From IMG/VR virus record IMGVR_UViG_3300049216_000635, positions 1-23,848 of that record: a DNA stretch of 23,848 nt; one strand, given 5' to 3'. The notes below the pieces were generated by a model that was given only the letters and a program-made list of their open reading frames with translations, was not told where the DNA came from and made no database searches. Positions 2,653-17,318 of this stretch are shown here, in pieces. Source of the stretch: a virus. How positions within the stretch are numbered: position 1 is the first letter of the stretch; each line of letters starts with the position of its first letter. The position numbers and the translations under genes were made by a program.

Positions 2653-2883
2653 CTACTCCGCCGCCTCGGCGATCGCGCGCAGCCGTTCGCGCGTCGAGAG
2701 CGCGGCGTTCCGTTTGGCGATCTCCGCCTCCAGTCGATCGATGATCGGCATGTAGCGATCGCCGTAAAGCAACACGACCCGCGCCGCGGTCTTCAGGCCG
2801 TGCCTGATCTCCTCTAGCGACGGCTCGCCGGCGCTCGGCGCCGGCCGCCGTGGATCCAGCGGCAGGTCGAGCTGCGAGCTCAT
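2653..2883 (-). CDS. Small helical phage protein (76 aa)
   Basis: The ATG at 2883 overlaps the TGA of the preceding DUF1643 gene as ATGA, which fixes the start; the longer open frame to 2988 lies inside that gene and is rejected. The protein begins MSSQLDLPLDPRR and has a helical, charged C-terminal half (LLYGDRYMPIIDRLEAEIAK). I recognise this pattern from small phage hypothetical proteins, with no known function. No signal peptide or membrane segment is seen. Confidence 0.65.
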   Translation of the reverse strand: MSSQLDLPLDPRRPAPSAGEPSLEEIRHGLKTAARVVLLYGDRYMPIIDRLEAEIAKRNAALSTRERLRAIAEAAE

Positions 2884-3458
2884 GGAGGCGACCACCGCTG
2901 CGGCCGCGCGTTGTCGGGAATGCGCATGCGGCCGCGGGCGAGCGTGTGCCGCGGCGAGCCATCGTCGTTGACGGCGAGACACATCCACGGCACGTTGCCG
3001 GCGATGCGGTCGATTTCGGAGAGGAAGAGCTCGAGGTCGGCCGGCACGATGCCGGATCCCCAGATTGCCAGGCGCATCGCAGTGCCGCGAACCGCGTTGC
3101 CCGCGGCAAGATAATTACCGATCTGCCTGATCGCGTAGCCTTCGTTCCGCTCCCCAAGCCAGCGCTCGAGCTCACGCGGCCTCGAGGTGATGAACGGATA
3201 GACATTGACCTGCACCAGCGAGCCGAAGCCCCAGCGGTGCGCGAAGGCAATGTTGCGCAGCGTCGTAGGATCATCACGATCGCCGTCCGCCAGCGACGGG
3301 TTCTTGCCGGCGATCGCCAGGCGCGGTCCGGACCCCCACGCACGCACCATCGTGAGCCGGCAGTCGCCGACGATCTCTGCCTGGCGCACGATCGGCTCGG
3401 CCGGCATCCGCAATGGTCCGAGCTTGATATCGAGCGGAAAGGCGAGCTGGGCGATCAC
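2880..3458 (-). CDS. DUF1643 family protein
   Basis: This 192-residue protein has the DUF1643 pattern: a conserved GKNPSLADGDRDDPT segment, then RNIAFAHRWGFGSLVQVNVYP and an ITSRPRELERWL helix. The family is common in phages and mobile elements; I know of no established biochemical activity. The ATG at 3458 overlaps the preceding stop (ATGA), and its own stop overlaps the next start in the same way. It therefore sits in a tightly coupled operon. The remainder (IWGSGIVPADLELFLSEID) fits the C-terminal half of the domain, and the gene looks intact. Confidence 0.82.
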   Translation of the reverse strand: MIAQLAFPLDIKLGPLRMPAEPIVRQAEIVGDCRLTMVRAWGSGPRLAIAGKNPSLADGDRDDPTTLRNIAFAHRWGFGSLVQVNVYPFITSRPRELERWLGERNEGYAIRQIGNYLAAGNAVRGTAMRLAIWGSGIVPADLELFLSEIDRIAGNVPWMCLAVNDDGSPRHTLARGRMRIPDNARPQRWSPP

Positions 3459-3889
3459 TTTCCCACGCCCCCTGTGACGCCATCACTCAATGCGATCGGA
3501 TGTATGGTAACGACGCGACCGTCGCCGGTGACCACGAACGTCAACCCGTTCGCCACCAGCCCTGTCGCATCGCCCTTAACGGGAACGCGTTCGGCCGCCC
3601 CGTCGATGATCGAGGCGATCTCCTGGCGGATGGCATCCAGATCGATGCCCTTCACCCGTTCGAGGTAGCGGACGACAGCGTGATCGGTGACGTCCCACCG
3701 GCTGCGCGTACGGCTGCGAAGGATCTGGGTGATGCGGGCGATGCGAGAGTGGGCGAGCGTCTGCTCGGACGCCTTGACCTGCGCAACTCGGCCGAGGTCG
3801 ACACGCAGGCTCGCCAATTGCTCGCTCGACATCGCGGGGAATGTCGCCAACATCGGATCGTCGTCTGCGAAGCGGAACCGCTTGCTCAT
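3455..3889 (-). CDS. Phage protein of unknown function (144 aa)
   Basis: The start at 3889 (MSKRFRFADDDPML) is chosen because its ATG overlaps the stop of the upstream ASCH gene as ATGA; a frame extending to 3919 would overlap that gene by 34 bases. The N-terminal half is helical (SEQLASLRVDLGRVAQVKAS). The C-terminal half has WDVTDHAVVRYLERVKGIDL followed by short beta strands (LTFVVTGDGRVVTIHP). The HAVxRYLERV pattern is one I have seen in phage hypothetical proteins, and the strand layout is loosely reminiscent of small RelE/BrnT-like folds. I cannot assign it, and no partner antitoxin is evident. Confidence 0.65.
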   Translation of the reverse strand: MSKRFRFADDDPMLATFPAMSSEQLASLRVDLGRVAQVKASEQTLAHSRIARITQILRSRTRSRWDVTDHAVVRYLERVKGIDLDAIRQEIASIIDGAAERVPVKGDATGLVANGLTFVVTGDGRVVTIHPIALSDGVTGGVGK

Positions 3890-4308
3890 AGCCTGGCTCC
3901 GAGGGGCAGCCGTCGCCACCCGATCAGGAAACCGTCCCAGGCGCCCGCGACGCCGTTCTCATCGCGCCAGAAGCGCGCCATGTCGTCGAAGCTCTCGAAA
4001 CCGTCGCTGACCGCAAACGGCTCCGGCTGCATGGGCAAATATCCGGCGCCGGCGCGCACCCATTCGCCGAGGTGCTCGACCACGCGATAGAGCATGACGG
4101 CGGCCTGTTTGAAGTCGATCGTCACGCCGAGAAAATCTGTGCACGTACGCCGCATGATCAGCCGGCAGTGCGCGGTCCGCATGCCGGTGTAGAGCTGCAG
4201 TTCCTCGCCGGTCCTGGCGTGTCGGCGCCGGCGGCCGCGCAGCGTGTGCTGCTTCGAGCCGTCCTCGATCGAGGGCGCAAACCGGGCCTTGAAGGAGTAG
4301 GCGACCAT
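3886..4308 (-). CDS. ASCH-domain phage protein
   Basis: This 140-residue protein begins MVAYSFKARFAPSIEDGSKQ, then HTLRGRRRRHARTGEELQLY and TGMRTAHCRLI. That is the beta-barrel pattern of phage ASCH-like domains, which are related to PUA RNA-binding domains. The C-terminal part is tryptophan-rich (DDMARFWRD, WDGFLIGWRRL). The family is thought to bind RNA or nucleotides; its role in phages is not known to me. The start overlaps the upstream stop by one base (TGATG), so it is translationally coupled within the run of genes after the reverse transcriptase. Confidence 0.75.
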   Translation of the reverse strand: MVAYSFKARFAPSIEDGSKQHTLRGRRRRHARTGEELQLYTGMRTAHCRLIMRRTCTDFLGVTIDFKQAAVMLYRVVEHLGEWVRAGAGYLPMQPEPFAVSDGFESFDDMARFWRDENGVAGAWDGFLIGWRRLPLGARL

Positions 4309-4700
4309 CAGGCCGGCTCCGCATAGGCCGCGAGCATCTTCAGGCGCACGTCGACGGAGTGACCGGTGCGGTTGCGTCCGAACTCAGCGTTCAGCTTCTC
4401 GGCGATCGCCGCCACCGAAAGCCCGTCGACGCGCAGCTCCTCGAGGCGGCGGTCCTCGGCGGCGTCGAAATGAAAAATCGTGCGGCCGCGGCGCTGGTAG
4501 CTCGGCCGAGGCCCGTAGTGCCGTTCGCGGCGGATGAGACCGGCACAAATCATCTGCCACTGAATGGTCGCGGGATGCCGGTTCATTATCCGCGCGACCT
4601 TCCCTGGCGTCGGCGACCGCATCTGTTCGGCGAGCGTCCGCAGAACCTCGATCTCATCGGCCGTCAGGCGGCCGCGTTTGATGTTTGGGAGGGGCTTCAC
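4308..4700 (-). CDS. Helix-turn-helix / SANT-like DNA-binding protein
   Basis: This 130-residue protein has two helical segments consistent with DNA binding. The first (~11-56) includes LTADEIEVLRTLAEQM and PGKVARIMNRHPATIQWQM. The second (~78-122) is a Myb/SANT-like pattern, FDAAEDRRLEELRVDGLSVA followed by AIAEKLNAEFGRN. A regulator role is inferred. The GTG start at 4700 overlaps the TGA of the reverse transcriptase as GTGA, so translation of the two is probably coupled. It heads the group of small genes that follow the retroelement. Confidence 0.7.
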   Translation of the reverse strand: MKPLPNIKRGRLTADEIEVLRTLAEQMRSPTPGKVARIMNRHPATIQWQMICAGLIRRERHYGPRPSYQRRGRTIFHFDAAEDRRLEELRVDGLSVAAIAEKLNAEFGRNRTGHSVDVRLKMLAAYAEPA

Positions 4701-5728
4701 CCGTCCTCCAGCGCCAGCGAGCGGAGCAGGTTGTTGGCGTCGGCGAAGCGTGCGTGGCCGAGCCAGGCGGGCAGGAAGCGCTCAAGACGGTCGACGTCGC
4801 CGGCGCGCCGCCAGGCGGCGATCTTGCGCCGCGCCCGGGTAACGCTGTCGCGGCGGAGCAGCTTGTGGTCGGCGAAGATCCTGTAGCCGAGGAAATTCAC
4901 CCCGCGCGTCGACGGCGCGATCAGCCACTTCGAAAAACGCAGGCCGAGGCGCTCGCGCGAGAAGTGCTCGATCTCTTCCTTCAGCGCCCTGAGGTGTGTC
5001 GGCGAGCGGCCAAGGACGACCAGGTCGTCCATATAGCGGTACCAGTGAGGCTCGCCGAGCGCCTGCTGCAGGTGCCGGTCCAAGGTGGCTCCGGCGTAGT
5101 AGTTCGCGAAGATCTGAGAGGTGAGGCTGCCGATCGGCAGGCCAATGCCGTCGCGCGGTATCAGCCGCTCGAGCAGGAGCCTCGTCGCCCGGCAGGAAAT
5201 CTTGGCGTCGATCAGGCGCCAGAGCGTCGTTCGCTCGATCGAGGCGAAGTAGCTGGCGAAGTCCGTCTTCAGGAACCAGACACTTGCCGGCTTCCCCGTC
5301 GCGCCGGCCGGGCTTGCCGCCTCTTGCGAGCCGTCCCTCTCCAGCCGGCGGAGTTCCGCCTGCAGCATGCGCACTCCGGCGTGGGTGCCCTTTCCCTTCC
5401 GGCAGGCGAAGGCGCGCGGCAGCATCGCTCTGTCGAAGGTCGGGCCGATGACGCGGCAGATCGCCTGTTCGGCGACGCGATCGCGGAACGGGAGCGCGGC
5501 GATCGTGCGCCGCTTGGGATCGTAGACAGTGAAGATCGAAGGCGCCCCGGGCCGGTAGCTGCCGTGCTTCAGCTCGTCGGCAAGCAGCGCGAGGTTTAGC
5601 GCGTCGTACTCCTTGAACTCGAGGTAGCCCGAGCTCAGCCTCTTTCCCCGCGCGGTCAGTCGATATGCCAGAGCGAGGTTCGACGGGTCAGCGATCGCCC
5701 CGATGAGGTTGCGCGCGCGCTTGGTCAT
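4697..5728 (-). CDS. Diversity-generating-retroelement-type reverse transcriptase
   Basis: The enzyme would copy the template-repeat RNA into adenine-mutagenised cDNA. In the 343-residue form starting at the ATG at 5728, an N-terminal region (~38-110) is typical of DGR and related RTs: EYDALNLALLADELKHGSY, PFRDRVAEQAI and KGKGTH. A first catalytic Asp146 lies in FLKTDFASYFASI. The box GLPIGSLTSQIFANYY (~186-201) carries SQ, the DGR signature, rather than the SP of group II introns and retrons. The active site is YRYMDD (Asp214, Asp215), and NFLGYRIF follows. No maturase or endonuclease domain is present. The ATG has a GGAAAG-type site upstream; a GTG at 5788 in the same frame is an alternative. 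Upstream lie the template-like segment and avd; the stop overlaps the next gene. DGR membership is strongly supported by neighbours and motifs. Confidence 0.9.
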   Translation of the reverse strand: MTKRARNLIGAIADPSNLALAYRLTARGKRLSSGYLEFKEYDALNLALLADELKHGSYRPGAPSIFTVYDPKRRTIAALPFRDRVAEQAICRVIGPTFDRAMLPRAFACRKGKGTHAGVRMLQAELRRLERDGSQEAASPAGATGKPASVWFLKTDFASYFASIERTTLWRLIDAKISCRATRLLLERLIPRDGIGLPIGSLTSQIFANYYAGATLDRHLQQALGEPHWYRYMDDLVVLGRSPTHLRALKEEIEHFSRERLGLRFSKWLIAPSTRGVNFLGYRIFADHKLLRRDSVTRARRKIAAWRRAGDVDRLERFLPAWLGHARFADANNLLRSLALEDG

Positions 5729-6059
5729 GACGCGATCGCTTTCCGCAGCCAGCAGCCCCAGATGCGACACTGAGAGGCAGTGCACCACGGACAGAAGTGC
5801 GCGGCGATCGCCGGCCGCAGGTCTCGAACGCTACGACAAAACGCAACGCCTACGCCCTGTTCTGCCGGACCCTGAAGGGTGTTCGCCGAAGCCGGATATG
5901 CGGGCTGACCACCGATCGTAATCGCGCTCCTCTCGGGAGCTGTGGCCGGCCGGGGAGACCGTGGTCGACCCCGAGCCGCTCCCTGCAGGTGGCGCCGCGA
6001 CCCATACAAGAGGCGCGGAAGGCCGGAGGCCTGACAGGGAAAGCAAAAATGGTCACAGC
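5729..6059 (-). other. Spacer between template-like segment and RT (putative DGR RNA 3' part)
   Basis: These roughly 330 bases separate the template-like repeat from the RT start. They are GC-rich with local inverted repeats such as GGCCGGCC near 5945-5952. In the BPP-1 element the corresponding spacer is part of the structured RNA needed for cDNA priming, so a non-coding RNA role is inferred. A frame in phase with the template segment stays open across it and ends at 5725 in an ATGA overlap with the RT start, so translation cannot be excluded. I recognise no protein family in it. Confidence 0.45.
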
Positions 6060-8663
6060 GGCCGCGGGCCCCGATGTTCTCGTTCGAGTTGTCCGGCCAG
6101 TTGTAGGCGACGTTCGCCTGGCGCGAGCCGGCGTTGTCGTCGTTCCACCAGTTGCCGCCGAACAGGGACGCCCGGGGCATGACGCTACCCCGCATACCCG
6201 CCGGGGGCGGATGCTTCCGCCCCCGAACCGTTGATCAAAAGAGGGGCGGCCGCCGCCGCAGAGCTCTTGTTGCTGCCGAGCTTGCCGATCCAGGCACCCA
6301 GCATCCTGCCCGCCTCGGCAAGGAGCGCCAGCGCATGCTCCTGCTGGCGCGGTGTGATCATGCGTATCCCGGGTGACGCCGCGAAGCGGAGCAGCATCCG
6401 GAGCGTGGCGAAGTCGGCGTCGACGGCGTAGAGCCGCGACACCTGCCGCGATTTCGCCGCGTGGTAGAGGCCACCGACCGGCGCGAGCAACTGCGCGACC
6501 AGAACGTCCCGCGCGGCGCGATGCTGGCGCGGGCAATTCTCGATCGCCTTGTAGACGTAGCTGACCACGCTCTCGTAGCGCTCCACGATCTTGAGACCGT
6601 CGAGCGCTGCCCTGGTTTGGTCGCGAACCGTACTCATGGCTGGCGCTCTTCCCCTCACGCGCCGCCGCTGTCGCGGCGGCTAGATTTTTGCGAAGGTGGT
6701 TGCCCACCGCATCGGTGAGCGCGCCGGCATTTTGCGCGATGAACTGCTTAACGCCGGCGGCGTCGATGGTGTGAATGTGGATGTGGGTATCGCCACCGCC
6801 CGACGACGAGCCCGCGGCCGAGCGCGCGCCACCGCCGCCCGATGCCCCTGCCCCGGTCATGGCACTGCGCAGCGCGCCGGCGGCCTGAGCCGGGATGATC
6901 ATTTCGCCCTTGTGCACCTGCGCGACCATGTCGTTGGACAGGTTCCACGCGCCGACGTCAAAGGAGGGAATGCCGAGCGCCAGGCCAATGACGTTGCCGA
7001 TGAAGCCGAGCGATTGCATCAGGCCGGTCTTGGCGATCCATTCGGCCAGCATCTTCTCGAGGCCCTCGATGAAGTTCTTGACCATGTCGTCGACGACGAT
7101 GCGGAAGGCATCCCCGAAACTCGATGCCTGCTGGGTCGCCTGGTTGATCATCGAGAAGAAGCTGTTGAAGCCCTGGTCCCAGAGGTTGTATTCGCGCTCC
7201 GCTTCCTGCTCGTCGATCTGCTCGCGCTTCGCGGCGGCTTCCTGCTTGGCGGCCGTTATCTTGTTCTCGATCTGCTGACGCTGCGCGGCCGTGAGGCCCG
7301 CGATCGACAGTTCCTTCTGGTAGGCGGCAAGCGTGTCTGCCAGCTGTTGGTCGATCGCCTCCTTTTCGAAGGCAACGCCTTGCTGGGCGGTAATCTTGTG
7401 CATCGCGACCAGCGTCTGCAGGCCGCGCTCGGTCGCCGCGATCCCGGTCTTCCAGGCCGCGACATACTGCTCTTCGGACGCTATCGCCGCCTGGACGCCG
7501 CTGTTGTCGAAGTTCAGGCCGCCACCGCCGCCGCCATGTCCGCCGACCGTGATTTCCGCAGGGGGCGACTTGCCGCCGATGCCGTAGAGCTGCTCGACGA
7601 GCTCGGTATAGCTTTTCAGGACTCCGCCGATCTTGCCGCCGGTATCGGTGACGTCGCTGCCGAGCTGCTTCCACGTGTCGGCAAGGTCCTGGCCGGCCTT
7701 CTTGAAGTTGCCCCCGACGGCATCCACGACGCCTTTGGCGAGGCCGATCAATCCGTTGTTGATGGAAATGATCACGCCGCTGGCGACCTCGTACAGCACC
7801 TCGAAGGCCGCGACGAGCGTCAGTACCGAGGCGACGACGGCATCCACCGCGAAGACGATCGCGTTGAAGGCTACGGAAAGCAGATCGTTGTGGTGCAGCT
7901 CGTCATTGATGCCCTGCACCAGCTTGGTGAGACCCTCGACGACGGTGTCGATCGCCGGCTCGAACGCGGCGAAGATCGTCTCTCCGACGCCCGTAAAGCT
8001 CGTCTTCAGCGTATTGAGATCGTGCGCGGTGTTGGCGAAGGCGGCCGCGGTCGCGGCCGACATGCTGGCGCCCGTGGTTTCGAAGGTCTCCTTAAGCTGC
8101 GCCCACGCCGCGTTGTTGAGGTTCAGCACCGGCAGGAGCTGCTCGGCTCCGTTGCGGGCGAGCGCCATCGAGATCGCGGCTTTCTCCACGCCGTCGGGAA
8201 GCGCCGAAAAGCGCCCGCGCAGCGTGTCCAAGACGTCGAGGATATTTCCGTTCGCGAGCGACCGCGCGTCGAGGCCGAGCGCCCGGATCGCGGCCGCCGC
8301 GGGCGAGGCCTTGCCGCCTGCTTCTGCCAGGCGAAGTGTCAAGGTCTCGAGGGTCCGAATGAGAGCCTCGCCAGATCCACCCGTCTGCTCGGCCGCAAAG
8401 TTCAGCAGGCCGACCTGTTCGGTGGTGATGCCGAAGATTTCTGCCGTGCGCTCGGTCTGTTCGCCGAGCTCCGACATGCCTTCGACGAAGGCCTTCAGAC
8501 CCTCGAAGGTCAGCGATACGCCGACCAGATCGCCGAGCTCGCGGAAATTGTCGCTGACCTCGGCGACGGTGCCTTGCAGCCCTTCGAGGAGAGACTTGAC
8601 CGCGTTTACGCCTGCGCTGATCCCGGCCAGCTCGGCACCAAACTGGATGACAACATCGGCCAT
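5850..8663 (-). CDS. Tail tape measure protein (real C-terminus probably near 6640-6690)
   Basis: It sets siphovirus tail length and is ejected with the DNA. The N-terminus (IQFGAELAGISAGVNAVKSL) and a helical region up to ~250 are typical. Hydrophobic helices lie at ~265-320. A long coiled coil spans ~400-490 (KITAAKQEAAAKREQIDEQE), followed by FNSFFSMINQATQQASSFG. The conserved C-terminal segment is VHKGEMIIPAQAAGALR, with a Gly/Ser linker and THIHIHTIDAAGVKQFIAQN. Homology-like sequence stops near residue 660 (NHLRKNL). After that the frame continues for about 277 Arg/Pro-rich residues over avd and the template segment; I judge that part non-coding. A five-adenine run at 6685-6689 sits where loss of one base would give an immediate TAG. 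The start is the ATG at 8663. Confidence 0.8.
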   Translation of the reverse strand: MADVVIQFGAELAGISAGVNAVKSLLEGLQGTVAEVSDNFRELGDLVGVSLTFEGLKAFVEGMSELGEQTERTAEIFGITTEQVGLLNFAAEQTGGSGEALIRTLETLTLRLAEAGGKASPAAAAIRALGLDARSLANGNILDVLDTLRGRFSALPDGVEKAAISMALARNGAEQLLPVLNLNNAAWAQLKETFETTGASMSAATAAAFANTAHDLNTLKTSFTGVGETIFAAFEPAIDTVVEGLTKLVQGINDELHHNDLLSVAFNAIVFAVDAVVASVLTLVAAFEVLYEVASGVIISINNGLIGLAKGVVDAVGGNFKKAGQDLADTWKQLGSDVTDTGGKIGGVLKSYTELVEQLYGIGGKSPPAEITVGGHGGGGGGLNFDNSGVQAAIASEEQYVAAWKTGIAATERGLQTLVAMHKITAQQGVAFEKEAIDQQLADTLAAYQKELSIAGLTAAQRQQIENKITAAKQEAAAKREQIDEQEAEREYNLWDQGFNSFFSMINQATQQASSFGDAFRIVVDDMVKNFIEGLEKMLAEWIAKTGLMQSLGFIGNVIGLALGIPSFDVGAWNLSNDMVAQVHKGEMIIPAQAAGALRSAMTGAGASGGGGARSAAGSSSGGGDTHIHIHTIDAAGVKQFIAQNAGALTDAVGNHLRKNLAAATAAAREGKSASHEYGSRPNQGSARRSQDRGALRERGQLRLQGDRELPAPASRRAGRSGRAVARAGRWPLPRGEIAAGVAALRRRRRLRHAPDAAPLRGVTRDTHDHTAPAGACAGAPCRGGQDAGCLDRQARQQQELCGGGRPSFDQRFGGGSIRPRRVCGVASCPGRPCSAATGGTTTTPARARRTSPTTGRTTRTRTSGPAAAVTIFAFPVRPPAFRASCMGRGATCRERLGVDHGLPGRPQLPRGARLRSVVSPHIRLRRTPFRVRQNRA
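6060..6180 (-). repeat. Template-repeat-like segment of a diversity-generating retroelement
   Basis: Read leftward, this segment would encode ASLFGGNWWNDDNAGSRQAN and then VAYNWPDNSNENIGARGRCD. That matches the C-type-lectin / formylglycine-generating-enzyme-fold variable-region motif (GG.W...AG.....NIG.RG). All eight asparagines use AAC, the codon that adenine mutagenesis diversifies most widely. Its 3' part is GC-rich and almost adenine-free (ATCGGGGCCCGCGGCCGC), as expected near the initiation site of mutagenic homing. It lies between avd and RT on the same strand, the TR position in BPP-1. Exact ends are unknown because no matching variable repeat was found in the window. It could instead be a short coding variable region beginning at the ATG at 6180. 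Confidence 0.7.
6185..6637 (-). CDS. avd: DGR accessory protein Avd (four-helix bundle)
   Basis: Avd forms a basic pentameric barrel that binds the DGR reverse transcriptase and template RNA. This 150-residue protein has the family layout: helix 1 GLKIVERYESVVSYVYKAIE, a short loop with CPRQHR, helix 2 AARDVLVAQLLAPVGGLYHA, helix 3 DADFATLRMLLRFAA, then ITPRQQEHALALLAEAGRML and GAWI as helix 4. The TPRQ.EHA...EAGRMLGAW ending is characteristic of bacterial Avd proteins. Residues ~119-150 are a low-complexity Ala/Gly/Ser tail. The ATG at 6637 has a GAGGGGAAG site upstream. The stop lies a few bases before the template-like segment. The tape-measure frame overlaps the whole gene in another phase. 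Confidence 0.85.
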   Translation of the reverse strand: MSTVRDQTRAALDGLKIVERYESVVSYVYKAIENCPRQHRAARDVLVAQLLAPVGGLYHAAKSRQVSRLYAVDADFATLRMLLRFAASPGIRMITPRQQEHALALLAEAGRMLGAWIGKLGSNKSSAAAAAPLLINGSGAEASAPGGYAG

Positions 8664-8739: not shown

Positions 8740-8955
8740 ATGAACGGCTACGAGGAGCAGATACGCTTCGCGTGGCTCTGGTCGCTGCTGTTCGGGTTTC
8801 TCTATTTTGCGGTAAAAGGAGCGTGGGGCTATTGCCTGCTCACGCTGGTACTGGCCGTCTGCACGGCGGGGCTGTCGTGGTTTGTGGTGCCGTTCTTCGC
8901 GCACCGGATGATGGAGAGGCACTATCTTCGCGGCGGCTGGGTGCCGGTCGGATGA
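8740..8955 (+). CDS. Small two-helix membrane protein (probable moron)
   Basis: This 71-residue protein lies opposite to the surrounding tail operon. Two hydrophobic helices (~9-25 and ~28-52, including LLTLVLAVCTAGLSWFVVPF) are followed by a short basic cytoplasm-type tail ending RGGWVPVG. The layout resembles DUF2628-like small membrane proteins. Start choice is uncertain: ATG 8740 (MNGYEEQ) fits the protein pattern, and ATG 8713 is in frame. Its stop overlaps the start of the next rightward gene as ATGA. Its AT-richer sequence and reversed orientation between tail chaperone and tape measure suggest a separately acquired lysogenic-conversion gene. Function is unknown. Confidence 0.65.
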   Translation: MNGYEEQIRFAWLWSLLFGFLYFAVKGAWGYCLLTLVLAVCTAGLSWFVVPFFAHRMMERHYLRGGWVPVG

Positions 8956-9257
8956 GCGCGGTGTGGGTCCTCGCCTCTCTTATATTGGCGTGGTTTGCCT
9001 ATCGCGCGCTGCGCCGGCGATGGCTCTTTTCAAAGTATCACGACAAGCTCATCGTCAACCGGATCATGCGCCGGACTATCTGGCAGGGCATGACTATTGA
9101 GCAGTTGACAGACTGCTTGGGCCGGCCGTCCGCCATCGATCACGAGCAGCTGAAATCGAAGTCAAAGCAGCGATGGAAATATCGTCCCTTCGGGAAGAGC
9201 CGCTACCGGCAATGGGTGATGATCGAGGATGGCGTCGTCACCGGATGGAAGAACTAA
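8952..9257 (+). CDS. Small membrane-anchored protein with BamE/SmpA-like domain (probable moron)
   Basis: This 101-residue protein has an N-terminal membrane segment (VWVLASLILAWFAYRAL). After a basic stretch comes a small domain reading IWQGMTIEQLTDCLGRP, then SKQRWKYRPFGKSRY, QWVMIEDGVVTGWKN. The pattern (G-x-T/S-x-x-x-L x x x L/G-x-P, then WKY and a strand with GVVxGW) resembles SmpA/OmlA-like folds; I infer the fold from pattern only. It is coupled to the preceding membrane-protein gene (ATGA overlap), and both read against the tail operon. No promoter or terminator can be called with confidence. Confidence 0.65.
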   Translation: MSAVWVLASLILAWFAYRALRRRWLFSKYHDKLIVNRIMRRTIWQGMTIEQLTDCLGRPSAIDHEQLKSKSKQRWKYRPFGKSRYRQWVMIEDGVVTGWKN

Positions 9258-9286
9258 AAGCCAATGACGGCGACGAAAGTACGCGC

Positions 9287-15980: not shown

Positions 15981-17318
15981 TCAGGAGTGCTTGAGGAGGC
16001 TTGCGGCAGCCCCCAGGCGCGCAGCGCGGGCCTTGCGGCCGCGGCGAAGGGTGGCCTCGTCGGGGGCAACGGTTTCGGCCGGCTTATCGCCGCCGGCCGC
16101 CACTTCAGCGGCGGCAGCGGACGCAGGAGCGTCGTAGATACGAAGCTTCACGCCCCCATCCAAAACCAGTGTCGCGCCGGGCGTTCGCTTCCAGGCGTCG
16201 ACCTCTGCCCTCATTCGCCGCGCCGCATGATCTGAAATCGGTTCCTTAGGCTCGACCAGATAGCGCACGCCGGTGGCGCTCCGTGCCTGGCCGGCGATCG
16301 CCGAGAGGATGGACATGGCACGCAGCGCCGGCTTGTCGGCCGCGTAAGTGACCGCGTCGCCGACGACGACCGTGATCTCCTCATCGTCGTCGCGATCGAG
16401 GAACTCCGCGACTTCTTCGGCGGTCATATCCATCAGCACCTGGCCGAGTGCCTTCAACGCGGCGAGCAGCTGGGCCGGCACGGGGCTATCGTCGCCTTCG
16501 ATCTCGGCTTCGACCGCGACATTGTCCTGCAGCCAGCCCAGCGAATAGAGAAGACTGGCGAGGTCAGAGACGTGCCAGAGCGAGCGCTTGACCGGGCTCG
16601 GCGCCGGCGGCGTCTTCTGTGTCGTCACGACGGGGGCTGTCGGCATTCTGGCCATCCTTCTCAGGGTCTCGAGCTCGCCGCGCGGCACGATGAGCATGCC
16701 GCCGCTGTCGAGCAGCCGTTCTGTCCATTCGAAAAGCGGTCCCGTATCGATGCCGACCGAGCGGGCGGAAACCAGCGCCTCGGGATCGGCAGGCACGTTG
16801 ACGACCGACCACTCCCAGAGCTCCTGCTCGACAATGTCGATATCGCCGGCGCGCTCGGGTTCGGTGGCGCGCTGCGCCTTCAGGACCTGAAAGCCGACCG
16901 ACACTGCGTTCAGGAACCGCTGCTTCAGCAGCTGGTAGATCGTATCGGCCAGCGGATGAATCTCGCGGGTCGCGAATATCCCGGTCGAGCGCAGGACGCC
17001 GCCGGCGACCCGGGTGTCGATGGCGCGGCCGATCGCCGGCGTGGCGTCATCGTGAGCCCAGAGCACCACCGGGTTTTTGAGGAAATTTGCCGTCTTCCAG
17101 CCGGCCGGCGCGATGGTCATGCCATCCCGTGCCACGCCAGCGGTGGAGATGGCAAAGCTGATCGCGCGGCTGTCGGTCGCCTCATCCGCCGTCGCTTCAC
17201 CATAAGGTGCGACGAGCCGGGTCCGCCGGCCGTCGTCGCCCGGCGCAAAGATGCTGGCCGGATCCTCGCCGGCCGCAAAACGGGCGGCGAAGTCTGCAGG
17301 CTTGAGGATGCCGGGCAT
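15981..17318 (-). CDS. Prohead protease (HK97 family) with long C-terminal extension
   Basis: The enzyme cleaves capsid scaffold domains during head maturation. The catalytic domain spans ~35-190: ISFAISTAGVARDGMTIAPA, NPVVLWAHDD with His89, FLNAVSVGFQ with Ser140, and ELWEWSVVNVPADPEAL as the third-residue region. The protein is 445 residues, about twice the usual length. The extra C-terminal part contains a Pro-rich linker (~228-245), an acidic helical region (DMTAEEVAEFLDRDDDEE), a segment near 365-415 (RYLVEPKEPISDHAARRM) and a basic tail. The extension may act as scaffold; this is inference. It lies two bases after the portal stop. Confidence 0.88.
   Translation of the reverse strand: MPGILKPADFAARFAAGEDPASIFAPGDDGRRTRLVAPYGEATADEATDSRAISFAISTAGVARDGMTIAPAGWKTANFLKNPVVLWAHDDATPAIGRAIDTRVAGGVLRSTGIFATREIHPLADTIYQLLKQRFLNAVSVGFQVLKAQRATEPERAGDIDIVEQELWEWSVVNVPADPEALVSARSVGIDTGPLFEWTERLLDSGGMLIVPRGELETLRRMARMPTAPVVTTQKTPPAPSPVKRSLWHVSDLASLLYSLGWLQDNVAVEAEIEGDDSPVPAQLLAALKALGQVLMDMTAEEVAEFLDRDDDEEITVVVGDAVTYAADKPALRAMSILSAIAGQARSATGVRYLVEPKEPISDHAARRMRAEVDAWKRTPGATLVLDGGVKLRIYDAPASAAAAEVAAGGDKPAETVAPDEATLRRGRKARAARLGAAASLLKHS

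Follow-up and report, generated by a model that had tools for sequence, protein, structure and literature searches.

Gene layout of the viral fragment

The window, i.e., the whole stretch of DNA analysed here (record IMGVR_UViG_3300049216_000635; 23,848 bp), is a fragment with both ends open. From high to low coordinates, its minus strand encodes the small terminase, large terminase, portal, protease, capsid, connectors, and tail tube, followed by the tape measure, avd, the template repeat (TR), a reverse transcriptase (RT), an HTH gene, a phrog_8581 gene, a DUF1643 gene, and further genes; several of the late-gene names were assigned by gene order and relatives instead of a family match of the window protein. 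The left end carries an integrase, encoded on the plus strand. The features at and around the diversity-generating retroelement (DGR) are listed below, with L002 denoting the related contig IMGVR_UViG_3300031712_000136.

2880-3458, minus strand: DUF1643 gene (Pfam/PHROG), in the block common with L002
3455-3919, minus strand: phrog_8252 gene (Pfam/PHROG), in the same block
3886-4308, minus strand: phrog_8581 gene (Pfam/PHROG), in the same block
4308-4700, minus strand: HTH gene (Pfam/PHROG), in the same block
2880-4700, minus strand: the block itself, four genes 3' of the RT, colinear with L002
4697-5728, minus strand: DGR reverse transcriptase (PDB 8ub7_A, Pfam RVT_1, phrog_1423)
5810-5958, minus strand: DGR RNA between TR and RT (Rfam RF03022 Phage_DGR, 66.9 bits)
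about 6048-6180, minus strand: TR, template of a C-type-lectin-like variable repeat (VR), 133 nt (L002 and BPP-1 TR matches)
6185-6637, minus strand: avd, accessory variability determinant (Pfam, NCBIfam, and PDB matches)
6661-6680, minus strand: orphan hairpin GCCGCCGC-GACA-GCGGCGGC, 8-bp stem and GRNA-type GACA loop, right after the leftover stop codon
6680-6684, minus strand: TC + TAG, the last 2 nt and the stop codon of the lost target (aligned with the L002 target stop codon)
6684-6685, no strand: junction between tape-measure sequence and target-avd spacer (breakpoint likelihood; three-way comparison of L037, window, and L002)
6685-8663, minus strand: truncated tail tape measure gene (PHROG tail tape measure families)

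Two local differences were found between the late region and the related contig L037, which comes from metagenome 3300031712, as does L002. Just upstream of the tape measure, about 340 bp (8944-9283) have no counterpart in the otherwise colinear L037 and contain a plus-strand ORF (8955-9257) that opposes the late genes and is possibly a moron gene. The protease gene (15981-17318) shows a pS of 0.46 and a pN of 0.15 compared to L037, far above those of the neighbouring genes, and this divergence is likely a recombination patch.

The DGR core is intact

The original prediction of a DGR core at 4697-6637 (minus strand) was borne out, with avd, TR, the Phage_DGR RNA, and RT all intact and in the canonical BPP-1-type order. 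The RT matches PDB 8ub7_A, an RT deposited together with Avd, with an E-value of 1.6e-101, far above retron and group II RTs, and contains the expected YMDD and SQ-type box (motif 4: GLPIGSLTSQ). Its 35 relatives mostly carry adjacent TR/VR pairs, and these pairs, the 8ub7_A match, and BPP-1 (brt) as the closest named phage (50% identical) argue for membership in the DGR clade. The proposed Avd was identified by Pfam (bAvd, 3e-23), NCBIfam (DivGenRetAVD, 4e-29, above cut-off), and PDB (4dwl [Bbp7/Avd], 2e-24; 8ub7_B was also matched), and the accessory protein of a BPP-1-type DGR is thus present. The TR is identical to that of L002 at 131 of 133 positions and 76% identical to the annotated BPP-1 TR. 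Together with a full-length RF03022 match (66.9 bits vs. a gathering threshold of 50; E-value 1.2e-9; model positions 1-127 of 127), this homology places a template repeat in an RNA beside the RT. Compared to L002, pN is below pS in both avd (0.096 and 0.332) and RT (0.075 and 0.407), suggesting that the two genes are under purifying selection.

The window and the Bordetella phage BPP-1 DGR (mtd-VR, avd, TR, brt) share the avd-TR-RNA-RT order and strand, homologous Avd and TR, and a hairpin with an 8-bp stem and a GRNA loop. In BPP-1, mtd with its VR precedes avd, whereas the window keeps only a stop codon and the hairpin at this position, after the tape-measure gene.

Targets and gene order in related DGRs

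The related contigs have their VR some 0.5-0.65 kb upstream of the TR, where it occupies the 3' end of the gene just before avd. This position, directly upstream of avd, was found in nearly all relatives with enough flanking sequence (several further loci end too near the core to show a VR), and the TR-VR mismatches concentrate on template adenines (e.g., 16 of the 22 differences in L002, counted over the 133-nt frame). The intact relatives share the order target with 3' VR, stop codon, GRNA-loop hairpin, avd, TR, DGR RNA, and RT. The target proteins tested belong to phrog_11262, a tail protein family, and the family of the lost target is predictable as phrog_11262 on the basis of the TR and the relatives.

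The exceptions with adequate flanking sequence are of three kinds: the window, L071 (Mesorhizobium norvegicum), and L072 (Pandoraea nosoerga prophage; identical to L020 over their common stretch). All three encode RTs of the same group and have an incomplete DGR, and they differ in what is retained. The target gene of L071 (8900-11000) runs straight into TR-like sequence and the RT with avd missing, an arrangement that a VR x TR crossover, or assembly collapse of the two repeats, would produce. L072/L020 (L072: 9300-10972) has the BPP-1-group RT, but avd, a TR/VR pair, and a target were not found nearby upstream. Neither of them keeps avd, TR, and RT together with an orphan hairpin, as the window does.

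Other variations were observed within the group. In three contigs (L009, L010, and L011), one TR serves two neighbouring phrog_11262-type targets, each of which has a VR. In L026 (9140-9834), the TR-position copy and the target copy each lack adenines kept by the other, and the template itself looks mutagenised. In L007 (4992-13000) and L070 (3800-17231), the phrog_11262 target and DGR are located in an early/regulatory region outside the tail module, next to ParB-like, repressor, replication, or integrase genes.

A tape-measure gene joined to the end of a probably lost target

The late region of the window is 91-94% identical to that of L037. Relative to the L037 form, the truncated tape measure lacks only about 11 codons at its end and shows 97% protein identity. 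In L037, the gene has its native end NHLRKNHTARSAWKFA before the stop codon and is followed by DUF2460 (PF09343, 4e-36) and a DUF2163-like gene. The same succession of a related tape measure and DUF2460 occurs in more than a dozen other phages, most of which also have DUF2163 and some DUF2460 only. Downstream of the junction, the window shows 82% DNA identity with L002, beginning at the target stop codon and extending over avd, TR, RT, and the four downstream genes. Upstream of this stop codon, L002 has a phrog_11262 target with VR and early genes, in contrast to the tape measure in the window.

A three-way comparison showed that the window is L037-like up to rc17164 and L002-like from rc17165 (plus-strand 6685/6684), and a simple breakpoint likelihood was best at rc17164/17165, with an uncertainty of about 2 nt. 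The target stop codon precedes the avd start by 45 nt in the window vs. 46 nt in L002. Because its own stop codon is lost, the tape-measure frame remains open from 8663 to 5850, passing out of frame through avd and TR; this is the expected leftover of an accidental join in GC-rich DNA. A search for the junction pattern across IMG/VR found no second contig. L037 and L002 have in common only a short ACCACCTGC-type stretch just upstream of the join. In-register recombination via this common ACCACCTGC was considered and rejected: the tape-measure codons HLRKN go on beyond it, and the stop spacing is off by one.

An orphan recipient-site hairpin

In BPP-1, a hairpin with an 8-bp stem and a GRNA loop just downstream of the VR is needed for efficient target recognition and homing (PMC3240598). 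A GC-rich hairpin of the same kind follows the target stop codon in 18 compared relatives. In their alignment, both sides of seven of the eight pairs vary, 93% of cells are paired, and the covariation score was reached by none of 500 shuffles. The window hairpin at 6661-6680 folds alone (z = -3.1), and the adjoining VR/IMH is gone. Since this recipient-site hairpin is present without a VR, the former end of the target gene can be located here, and the comparison identifies the orphan hairpin as marking the putative DGR recipient site of the lost target. The DGR-side breakpoint lies only a few nucleotides from the hairpin base; breakage at an extruded cruciform is therefore a possible cause of the join, proposed after the fact. 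The original prediction mentioned neither this hairpin nor the junction or the run of the tape-measure frame into avd and TR.

Search for a variable repeat

The original prediction had noted no second copy of the TR. This held within the 23.8-kb record, as determined by a repeat search and an adenine-tolerant scan. With template adenines left free, the best other site in the window was wrong at 15 of 46 fixed positions, compared to 17-18 in mononucleotide shuffles. In this incomplete record, no target gene has a VR differing at template adenines, and the window is therefore classified as a derivative of a DGR core and not as a complete DGR; a further VR outside the record is possible. The adenine-free search of related phages that had been proposed returned only the L002 TR from IMG/VR and no VR copy in a target gene. 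This search used exact matching, which limits its sensitivity (e.g., it misses the VR of L002 itself, which has a non-adenine change). Allowing up to three mismatches, we found no match to the VR pattern in 397 genomes of the order of the Mesorhizobium relative (G007), an order from which the true host of the window may differ. An RT search of the same genomes recovered the known Mesorhizobium locus only, and a plasmid collection yielded only a 41-bp match and no core relative.

Origin of the target-less core

On balance, we interpret the locus as a BPP-1-type DGR core that probably lost its cis target in a single illegitimate DNA join. The original prediction had left three options (an orphan element, action in trans, or the remnant of a deletion), among which the retained hairpin and the junction favour the remnant, and action in trans found no positive support. 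In BPP-1, the TR RNA is reverse-transcribed by RT and Avd with errors at adenines, and the VR is exchanged for the resulting cDNA. The intact ancestor of the window would have worked in the same way, with the replaced VR just upstream of the hairpin. The proposed join would have fused the 3' part of the tape-measure gene with the boundary of the target stop codon and hairpin, and in doing so removed both the target gene and the tail-tip genes found after the tape measure in L037. Taken together, L037 and L002 point to an ancestor in which tail-tip and early genes separated the tape measure from the target. Under an ancestral order of tail, early genes, and DGR on one strand, the event would have deleted some 6 kb or more, given the length of such sequence adjoining the breakpoint in L037 (about 1.0 kb) and in L002 (about 4.9 kb). 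With enzymes, template, and hairpin in place and the IMH and VR gone, the core is expected to be idle: it would still express a working RNP with no VR to rewrite. The phage itself should be defective, as the tail tip would be missing. Judging from pN below pS in avd and RT and from a nearly unchanged TR while the aligned block is about 82% identical, the target was probably lost recently.

Equal divergence of both halves would have supported a deletion in a single genome, and this was not obtained: synonymous differences are mostly 0.03-0.29 on the L037 side (protease 0.46) and 0.25-0.46 on the L002 side. This unequal closeness to the sister contigs weakens the case for a deletion, as it agrees with a join between phages or a chimeric contig no less than with a deletion. 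In addition, the DGR and late genes occur in other relative orders in L007 and the Mesorhizobium prophage. The unequal divergence, the varied module orders, and the lack of a second junction contig keep a join between two phages, or a chimera, in play, and we infer a deletion as opposed to an inter-phage join.

A chimeric contig is the strongest competitor, and we consider it unlikely without being negligible. Its tape-measure and DGR halves would derive from two phage genomes, or from two parts of one, that were joined while the library was prepared or the reads were assembled, with the actual phages being intact. It would account for the different divergence of the halves from the contigs of metagenome 3300031712, the absence of the junction from other IMG/VR contigs, and a join that disrupts both the tail module and the target order. 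However, no k-mer of the usual length is common to both sides at the join, as judged by the sister contigs and not the true parents, which argues against an assembler artefact. Moreover, the window does not cross over at the short stretch common to L037 and L002, there is no run of N at the join, and the last tape-measure codons have their own synonymous changes. We therefore favour a real deletion or recombination over a chimeric contig.

Much less probable is that the core acts in trans on a VR gene outside the 23.8-kb record, be it in the rest of the phage genome, on a different prophage, or in the host genome. The intact, conserved core and TR, the two-target DGRs within the clade, and the fragmentary record would all be compatible with it, but the second targets of the clade also adjoin the core, the adenine-free VR pattern led only to the L002 TR in IMG/VR and to nothing in the 397 genomes, and the recipient-site hairpin sits at this core without its VR. 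We give slightly less credence still to a complete, selected core without a cis target, which would diversify a VR in trans on another replicon or resident prophage, or whose Avd, RT, and RNA would be kept for another role. Transfer of avd-TR-RT as a mobile cassette into the end of a foreign tape-measure gene is very improbable, even though the core directly follows the tape measure and interrupts the tail module, because homology to L002 runs past the RT through four more genes, as it would not for a discrete insert, and the tail genes do not restart on the far side.

Implications for DGR decay

With loss of the target in a single join as the preferred reading, the orphan recipient-site hairpin stands out as the most useful new element. 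A DGR whose target is gone can stay recognisable, with this hairpin persisting as a scar. A previous large survey (Roux et al. 2021; PMC8144416) accepted an RT only with an imperfect repeat at most 20 kb away, and target-less cores would therefore have been left out. Searches based on Avd, the RF03022 RNA, and orphan GRNA hairpins would expose decayed and trans-acting DGRs and the frequency of each route of decay.
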